A DNA stretch of 64,000 nt, from NCBI RefSeq assembly GCF_001983935.1, contig NZ_CP017641.1, forward strand, positions 3,658,001 to 3,722,000. Reading direction: 5' to 3'. Shown here piece by piece: positions 57,402 to 63,270 of this stretch. Below the pieces are notes generated by a model. It was not told where the DNA came from. It saw only the letters and a list, made by a program, of their open reading frames with translations, and did not search any database. The position numbers were made by a program, and so were the translations under genes. Position 1 is the first letter of the stretch; every line of letters begins with the position of its first letter. The stretch is from Fuerstiella marisgermanici (GTDB lineage: Bacteria; Planctomycetota; Planctomycetia; Planctomycetales; Planctomycetaceae).

Positions 57402-59460
57402 CCTAACCCAACTTCCCCAACTGGAGTCACGAAGGCAGTGTTTTGTGGGGTGAGCGGCCAGAAGTTTCCACTACATTTGCTTTTGGATTATTTTTGAGGG
57501 CAGTTTGAGGCTCAGCTTTTCCAGAAGAATCTGCTGATGGTCGGAGGGCTTTGACACGCAGCGGGTGCGGATCTCCGGGCCGGTGCGAGTGGGCAGGACG
57601 ACGTCCATCGAACGGATCTCCGACAGCTCCGCAAGCACACGGCGCGGTTCGTCGCCCAGCCCTGCTTTGCTGCACAGCTGGCCGAGCGTCTTCCACAACA
57701 CATACGCCAGAAAACACACGAAGATGTGTGCCAGAACACGGTCCTCCTTCTGATGCCAGATCGGGCGGATCGAAAGATCGCTTTTGTGGATTCGGAACGC
57801 GGCTTCCGCTTCGGTCAGTTGGATGTACGCCTTCCAAAGTTCTTCGTCGGACCAGTCGCTGACATTCGTTCGCAGCAGATAGCATCCGGAACTCAGAGTC
57901 GCCCAGTCACGCGTAGCTTCGATCTTTGACCATTCGATGCGTGCGGCCCCGTCATCTGTCTTCGTGACTTTCACGTCGAAGAGCTTTGCCGCTCGAGTGT
58001 TCTTTCCGAGCAGCCGGCCGATCTCACGTTCGACCTTCATCGGGTCGCGTTTCTGTTTATCGCACCGCGCCGTCATGCGGATGAGCGACTCTTCGATCTT
58101 CTTTTCGAAGCGCTGTGTGATCGCTTCTTCCTTCTTTGATCGATCGCGACTGCGACACAGGATGAATGTCTCCGGCGATGTGTTGCAGTCTTCCGATTCA
58201 TCCGGATCGTCGCTGCCGGGCCACGGCACGACCTTGACTTCCAGGCCATCGCGAATGCTGGTCCAGTCTTCCTTCAGCAGCTCGTGTTCAAACTTCTTCA
58301 GCATCGATTTGGGAGTGCCGACGATGTAGCGTCGACCGCCTTCGCGCAGGAATTCGATGTTGTCTTCCGACACCATGCCGCGATCCATGACCCAGATGCG
58401 ATCGCTTTTCCCGTAGCGTGCTTCCATCGTTTCGACGATGTGTTCCACGGTAGTAACGTCGGCCGTATTGCCGGCAAACACCTTGTATCCCAGCGGCATT
58501 CCGCATCGAGACACCACCAGCCCGATGCAGACCTGCTTGCAGTCGCTGCGGTTATCGCGCGAATAGCCACGCTGAGCCAGCGGATTGCGTTCGGCCTGAC
58601 CTTCGAAGTAAGTGCTGGTGACGTCATACATCAGCAGGTCGTATTCGAGATCGAACAGATGGCCAAGGCGATTCTTCAGATGCGTTTCCAATGCGTCCTT
58701 GTGCGGCAGCAGCTGATCGAGTGTGCGGTACAGCCGATTATCGTTCACACGTTCTTCGCTCACGCCGAGCAGATCCCGCAGTGCCGTTTTCGGATACCAT
58801 TGTTCGGCGGTGAAGAGTTCGCTGGCAGGTTCGAGCAGCCGCGCAATGATCAGAATCAGCGAACTCACATCCCAGCCGACCAGTTCACGACCTTCAGGGA
58901 TCGCGTTGCTCAGGAACGTATCCAGTTGCAGCGTGCGAATCAGGTGCAGAGCCATCCACGGCCCGCCGAACTGTCGCAGGTTTTCCACACGAACTCCGGC
59001 GGCGTTGACTTCGACCCATCGCGGAGTCACGGCAGACGCATCATCATCGAACTCGAATCGCATCTGTCGACTGAGCGGTTGTGACTGATCAGCGGTGACA
59101 CCGGGTGCAACCTCATCGCTACCGGCCAAAACTTCCGCCGCCTGATGGACGCCCAGTCGACCGGCTTCGTCAAGCTTCCCCAGCCACGCGACCACCCGCT
59201 GCCGCGGCCCACTGGCCGAGCGATACGATTCGACCAGCGCCCAGTAGGCGTGGCGACGACCGTTTTTGATTCGATGGCATTGGCGAATGAACATGATCGC
59301 AAATGCTACCGATCGATCTCTGACCGGCCAGATCAGAGGTCGTCACTACATCGTGTTTCAGATTTCAAACGCTGGACTTTCGGAAAATCGATAACAAAAA
59401 CACGCCGAATAAATTCTCTGCAACCACATTTTGTGCGGCTGCTGGGGAAGTTGGGCTAAG
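57402..59460 (-). mobile_element. IS1634-type insertion sequence, 2059 bp
   Basis: Terminal inverted repeats CCTAACCCAACTTCCCCAAC (57402-57421) and GCTGGGGAAGTTGGGCTAAG (59441-59460) match at 17 of 20 positions and flank one transposase gene. I found no clear target-site duplication, so the exact ends could be off by a few bases or the copy may have rearranged. Confidence 0.85.
57471..59294 (-). CDS. IS1634 family DDE transposase
   Basis: A 607-residue transposase. The N-terminal region ([29 protein letters not shown]) is typical of IS1634. The DDE core shows [14 protein letters not shown] (first Asp), [18 protein letters not shown] (second Asp) and the C-terminal [13 protein letters not shown]-x-RPIWHQ (Glu in the Y/R-E-K-type block). 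The frame is intact with no stop or shift, so the copy could be active. ATG at 59294 lies about 165 bases inside the right end. Confidence 0.92.
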
Positions 59461-62319: not shown

Positions 62320-62532
62320 CTACAGCTGAGTCAGGATTTCTTCATCCGTGGGAAACCGGTGAGTTTTTTGCTTGCTGAAAATCAGGCGGCCGTCGACTTC
62401 GACGTCAAACACACCACCTTTGCTCTTCACAAGTTCAGCATCGACGCCATTCTTGTTCTTGATCGCAGCCGCCAGACTGGTGGCTTGGGGCGTGTAATTT
62501 CACATCACGCAGTAGGTGATCCTGATCTTCAT
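62320..62532 (-). CDS. SelW-like (Rdx family) selenoprotein, UGA read as Sec
   Basis: Reading through one in-frame TGA (62500-62502) gives a 70-residue protein that matches the Rdx/SelW thioredoxin-like family from end to end. It starts MKIRITYCVMU (Cys 8, Sec 11: the CxxU redox motif), then NYTPQATSLAAAI, GGVFDVEVDGRLIFSK and the C-terminal FPTDEEILTQL before TAG. A GGAG ribosome site is 6 bases before the ATG. In Cys homologues the UGA position is the second Cys of CxxC. A hairpin after the UGA (62467-62485) fits a bacterial SECIS. An ordinary gene caller would miss it because of the stop and a 293-residue antisense frame. It probably acts in redox control; Sec machinery is not in the window. 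Confidence 0.82.
62467..62485 (-). promoter_or_regulatory. Candidate bacterial SECIS hairpin
   Basis: On the minus strand, 14 bases after the UGA, AGCC pairs with GGCT and, past an A/C mismatch, CCA pairs with TGG around the loop GTC. The first loop base is a G, 23 bases from the UGA. This position and loop G fit the known bacterial SECIS rule, but the stem is short. Confidence 0.5.
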
Positions 62533-62569
62533 TGTAAACTCCGTGGTGCAGGTTTCGTCGGCCAACCAT

Positions 62570-62799: not shown

Positions 62800-63270
62800 T
62801 TACTCCGCCTTTTTCTCTTTCACTTCATAACCCTTTTTGAATGCATCTTCGCTGAAGACCAGTTCAAGCTGTTCGTCGCCTTCGGCACCCGCAACCTTGG
62901 CTTTGCATTTGCCGCAGCAGAAGCCGACTTTGACGCCAGCGACCTTCACATTTTGTTCCGCGTTAACGGATCCACCAGACAGCGGGCACTTCACCTGCTT
63001 TGCCTGCTTGGTCTGGATCAGTTGATGATTCGCTTTCGTCGCAAACTTCTTGCTGTCCTTTTCCATGGCGGCTTTGCACTTGCCGCAGCAAACGTAGACG
63101 TTGGCCTTCTTGTAGCTGACGGTTTTTGCGTCAGCAATTTTGATTTCTTTGCCGGCGACCGGACACTTCACTGTGGTGACTTTTTCTGCTGCTTCTTCGG
63201 CGTTGCCAACAGAAACGATGGCAACCATCGCGGCCAGTAGTACAGAAGCTGCTGTTGTGAAAGACTTCAT
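62800..63270 (-). CDS. Secreted protein with two TRASH/YHS-like metal-binding repeats
   Basis: A 156-residue exported protein. After a signal peptide (AASVLLAAMVAIVSVGNA) there are two similar cysteine modules. The first has CPVAGKEI (Cys 36) and YVCCGKCKAAM (Cys 61, 62, 65); the second has CPLSGGSV (Cys 95) and GFCCGKCKAKV (Cys 118, 119, 122). The C-P-x2-G then C-C-G-x-C pattern resembles TRASH/YHS metal-binding domains linked to copper and other heavy metals. The protein is Lys-rich. AAAGGA precedes the ATG. It is encoded next to another Cys-rich secreted protein, suggesting metal homeostasis (inference). Confidence 0.75.
   Translation of the reverse strand: MKSFTTAASVLLAAMVAIVSVGNAEEAAEKVTTVKCPVAGKEIKIADAKTVSYKKANVYVCCGKCKAAMEKDSKKFATKANHQLIQTKQAKQVKCPLSGGSVNAEQNVKVAGVKVGFCCGKCKAKVAGAEGDEQLELVFSEDAFKKGYEVKEKKAE

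Follow-up and report, generated by a model that had tools for sequence, protein, structure and literature searches.

A SelW-like gene with an in-frame UGA codon in Fuerstiella marisgermanici and its homologues in the Planctomycetia

The UGA-interrupted reading frame and its protein family

In the window, i.e., the whole 64,000-nt stretch of the Fuerstiella marisgermanici genome analysed here (NZ_CP017641.1, positions 3,658,001 to 3,722,000), the minus strand at 62320..62532 carries a coding sequence for a SelW-like protein of the Rdx family, 70 amino acids long and followed by a TAG stop, when TGA is translated as selenocysteine (Sec or U). The frame starts with the ATG at 62532-62530 and its TAG stop ends at 62320; codon 11 is an in-frame TGA (62500..62502, minus strand) that places Sec in a CVMU (CxxU) redox motif, and a Shine-Dalgarno-like GGAG site (62539..62542, minus strand) is located 6 nt 5' of the ATG. 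The product translated with TGA as U is MKIRITYCVMUNYTPQATSLAAAIKNKNGVDAELVKSKGGVFDVEVDGRLIFSKQKTHRFPTDEEILTQL*. The initial annotation, which was made from the sequence alone, had the coordinates, strand, and reading of this frame right (TGA at 62502-62500), and the GGAG site (62542-62539) is present as it described. Standard ORF calling would stop the gene after 10 residues, so that the protein is easily missed, as is the organism's dependence on selenium. When gene neighbourhoods were compared, no gene was seen to be conserved next to selW. Elsewhere on the minus strand of the window there are a 156-aa protein (62800-63270) with a signal-like N-terminus and two CP...CCGKCK motif repeats, which matched no Pfam family and gave weak NCBIfam matches below cut-off, and a 607-aa IS4-type (DDE_Tnp_1) transposase (57471-59294).

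Profile searches against the SelT/SelW/SelH families, in which C was put in place of U, gave full-length matches above the curated cut-offs: 64.6 bits to Pfam Rdx (PF10262, residues 2-69, cut-off 22.6), 92.4 bits to NCBIfam NF041051 SelTWH (full length, cut-off 88), and 56.2 bits to TIGR02174 (full-length match to residue 69, cut-off 34.2). By these scores the agreement with the Rdx family on both sides of the TGA, pointed out in the initial annotation, is far beyond chance. In an AlphaFold2 model (pLDDT 94.8, pTM 0.81) the protein adopts a thioredoxin-like fold with the order beta-alpha-beta-beta-beta-alpha, the C8-V-M-U11 motif being placed after the first beta-strand (residues 3-8). The best PDB matches in Foldseek are the SelW-related structures 2fa8, 2obk, and 2ojl (TM 0.88-0.93); mouse SelW (2npb) gave a TM of 0.74, and thioredoxins scored lower than the best SelW-related matches. 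The Cys-type Rdx proteins Atu0228 (2fa8) and SAV_2001 (3dex) share the fold (TM 0.88-0.92) and align at C8, but they contain CxxC instead of CxxU and a longer C-terminus. In the alignments to 2ljk and Atu0228 the TGA lines up with the Cys of their CxxC, and the second Cys of Atu0228 occupies the Sec position of the Fuerstiella protein; the earlier placement of the UGA at the second redox Cys of CxxC homologues is thus an exact match. The NF041051 model (SelTWH_Campy) is named for members from Campylobacterota, whereas the present protein is from a planctomycete.

The CxxU motif alone means little, since a control by motif alone turned up 159 frames in the window that bridge a TGA and carry a redox-like motif; a scan of the window for other recoded TGA codons by motif plus hairpin likewise gave 159 frames and was set aside as too unspecific. 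It is homology, conservation, and coding constraint that carry the selenoprotein case, not the motif itself. TGA is one base away from the Cys codons, and a sequencing error in a true TGC or TGT codon, or a fortuitous chance frame, might be invoked for the interruption; with the same TGA in independently sequenced genomes and family scores far over cut-off, the probability of such an artefact is negligible.

Conservation of the UGA codon and the downstream hairpin

TGA is found at the Sec codon in all homologous loci from named genomes (23/23), which belong to Planctomycetota, Thermodesulfobacteriota/Deltaproteobacteria, Gammaproteobacteria, Krumholzibacteriia, Raymondbacteria, and others (titles of metagenome-assembled genomes, or MAGs, as deposited); the closest named relatives are Fuerstiella MAGs. 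The in-frame UGA is thus conserved at the redox position. The 57 codons 3' of the TGA were compared between the window and 12 relatives: read in the proposed frame they gave a pN/pS of 0.19-0.47, whereas the two alternative frames gave about 0.8-1.9 and 1.2-2.9; the value 5' of the TGA rests on nine codons only and is too noisy for use. Past the TGA, constraint at the protein level is confined to the proposed frame, a pattern that would not be expected if translation normally ended after ten residues.

A rival reading takes the locus for a pseudogene in decay, derived from a CxxC Rdx protein in which TGC or TGT was changed to TGA by a nonsense mutation. The TGA does lie in frame, and the class does have Cys-containing Rdx proteins. 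Against this, the TGA is conserved in the 23/23 loci and in about 112 homologues across phyla, the downstream frame is intact and under purifying selection in the 12 comparisons, and a covarying hairpin follows the TGA. The initial annotation had asked whether close relatives show TGA/TGC variation and frame decay; among the relatives the TGA is conserved and the frame preserved, with no decay. The pseudogene reading was rejected on TGA conservation and pN/pS, and we regard it as extremely improbable.

The hairpin, a bSECIS-type element located by RNA folding and covariation at 62467..62485 (minus strand), has the form GCC-A-CCA / GUC loop / UGG-C-GGC with the loop G at 62477. According to the bSECIS model (PMC13188914), the loop has 3-9 nt with a G in the first two positions and lies 16-37 nt from the UGA, and the minimum free energy is at most -7.5. 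In the window the loop is GUC, opening with its G at 22 nt from the UGA, and the hairpin has -11.5 kcal/mol, which agrees with the model, though weakly in a single sequence. Taken alone, the window's sequence folds with no exceptional stability (z -0.17 for the 71 nt spanning the UGA), and the hairpin contains an A-C mismatch; moreover, loop-G hairpins at a suitable distance often arise by chance, being present in 57 of the 159 TGA-bridged frames in the window (about a third). For these reasons only the comparative evidence was counted. In most homologues the hairpin starts about 15 nt past the UGA and its loop, GUC or GUU, opens 22 nt past it. Across 37 ungapped sequences, 85.8% of cells are paired in the 8-pair helix, and five pairs have changed on both sides; covariation scores 0.357, compared with a shuffle mean of 0.149 and no more than 0.123 when the helix is slid. 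RNAalifold independently picked four of its inner pairs. Compensatory changes maintain the hairpin, which conforms to the published bSECIS model. Rfam gave only sub-threshold noise of eukaryotic or archaeal snoRNA type at the locus. The UGA-interrupted small redox gene is almost certainly an intact selenoprotein gene.

Selenocysteine machinery and proposed mechanism

The window lies on the single contig (C1) of a genome of 8.92 Mb with a completeness score of 100%. This genome has one copy of selA (505.8 bits, cut-off 267.9) and, over cut-off, one copy each of selB (336.2 bits, cut-off 242.25), selD (263.2 bits, cut-off 125), and tRNA-Sec (79.7 bits, cut-off 47), the last called by ARAGORN as Sec with anticodon TCA. 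The absence of these genes had been named in the initial annotation as the main objection to its own reading; all four are present. The selD match covers the C-terminal portion of a 760-residue frame (near C1:1587774-1590000), directly downstream of selA, whose N-terminal half resembles an NADH-dehydrogenase-like flavoprotein; the active site of this SelD has Cys, not Sec.

The inserted residue cannot be named from sequence alone, which leaves room for a suppressor tRNA that reads UGA as another amino acid, e.g., Cys or Trp. This is very improbable: tRNA-Sec is the only tRNA with a UCA anticodon among the candidates examined, selA, selB, and selD are present, the occurrence of the gene follows the Sec machinery, and a bSECIS-type hairpin is present.

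A second likely user of the machinery lies elsewhere in the genome. An AhpC/TSA search found one match with an in-frame TGA (6135121-6135423), within a 181-residue frame on the minus strand (C1:6135438-6134896, TGA at 6135315) that has an HLGULPC (UxxC) site, scores 168.2 bits against the NCBIfam SelL-related redox protein model (cut-off 120), and is followed about 25 nt past the UGA by a stem-loop, UGACGC-AGUU-GCGUCA. This frame is likely a second selenoprotein, SelL-related with UxxC, and SelW is therefore probably not the sole user of the Sec machinery. Among the fdhA homologues of the genome only one short weak match has an in-frame TGA, a UGSC family search of the genome gave no match (its control likewise matched nowhere), and a lone CMD match with TGA was discarded as an apparently spurious frame.

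From what is established for the SelW family, the probable mechanism is the formation of a selenenylsulfide at the CxxU redox centre. We propose that SelB with Sec-tRNA(Sec) would be recruited by the hairpin just 3' of the UGA and that selenocysteine would be inserted at position 11 during translation. By analogy with established knowledge of the SelW family, the Cys8-x-x-Sec11 pair may cycle between selenol/thiol and selenenyl-sulfide forms, and the motif suggests that the product acts as a small thiol-disulfide oxidoreductase. We thus consider it very probable that the locus is a functional SelW-like selenoprotein gene of the Fuerstiella type, with hairpin/SelB-directed Sec at position 11 and a 70-residue thioredoxin-fold redox product.

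Known SelW-like proteins and distribution in Planctomycetia

SelW-like proteins ranked first in abundance among the selenoprotein families of the Sargasso Sea data (48 genes, bacterial SECIS elements shown), and their function was stated as unclear (PMC1088965); they are nearly without Cys forms in Sec-using bacteria (PMC1794560) and account for 11.3% of marine selenoprotein genes (PMC9402790). The Fuerstiella gene shares with these bacterial SelW-like genes (PMC1088965, PMC1794560, PMC9402790) the Rdx family, CxxU, UGA with downstream bSECIS, occurrence in marine bacteria, and the near-constant retention of Sec in Sec-decoding hosts; only the host lineage differs, the Fuerstiella gene being a short, stand-alone 70-aa form. 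The word "hidden" in the initial annotation is relative, since NCBIfam models already recognise the protein above cut-off and the family is among the most abundant of marine bacterial selenoproteins (PMC1088965, PMC9402790). Its remark that selenoproteins are little described in Planctomycetes is only partly true: a 2016 paper on Porphyra-associated planctomycetes describes Sec machinery and several selenoproteins (PMC4807772). The planctomycetes P1 (8.5 Mb genome) and P2 of that paper likewise have selA, selB, selD, and tRNA-Sec, with the Sec genes not all together, and SelW is absent from the main text (PMC4807772). Since the family is long known and planctomycete selenoproteins have been reported, the novelty of the Fuerstiella gene is modest; it extends a known family and leaves the understanding of Sec decoding unchanged.

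A SelW-like match was found in 121 of 297 Planctomycetia genomes, and at least one TGA form in 112 of 297. Of those 112, selA is present in 107, tRNA-Sec in 96, and one or both in 110, the two exceptions, with neither found, being drafts (G145 and G157); among genomes without a TGA form, selA or tRNA-Sec occurs in 53/185 (Fisher p 2e-37, not a strict probability because the genomes are related; lists compiled by hand from search outputs). This class-wide count makes the small Sec protein common in Planctomycetia, its occurrence following the Sec machinery, and the SelW-like family proves to be nearly always selenium-containing there. Even among members of the genus SelW is not always present: one congeneric genome (G249) has no SelW match though it keeps selA and tRNA-Sec. 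Tentatively, and at less than even odds, the short SelW-like lineage of Planctomycetia might be obligately Sec, present in more than a third of the sampled species with no Cys version of that lineage among the matches examined, and one of the main reasons why the class keeps its Sec machinery.

Stop-free matches of the CxxC type (G171, G195, G215, G246, G065, and G287 among those examined) belong mostly to a different, lower-identity subfamily, and the match in G030 is partial and does not cover the motif. In G294 (C172:17795-18001) the Sec codon is GGA (Gly), giving CSVG with no TGA, which would reflect either an error in the sequence or the loss of the redox residue. The same genome still has selA and tRNA-Sec.
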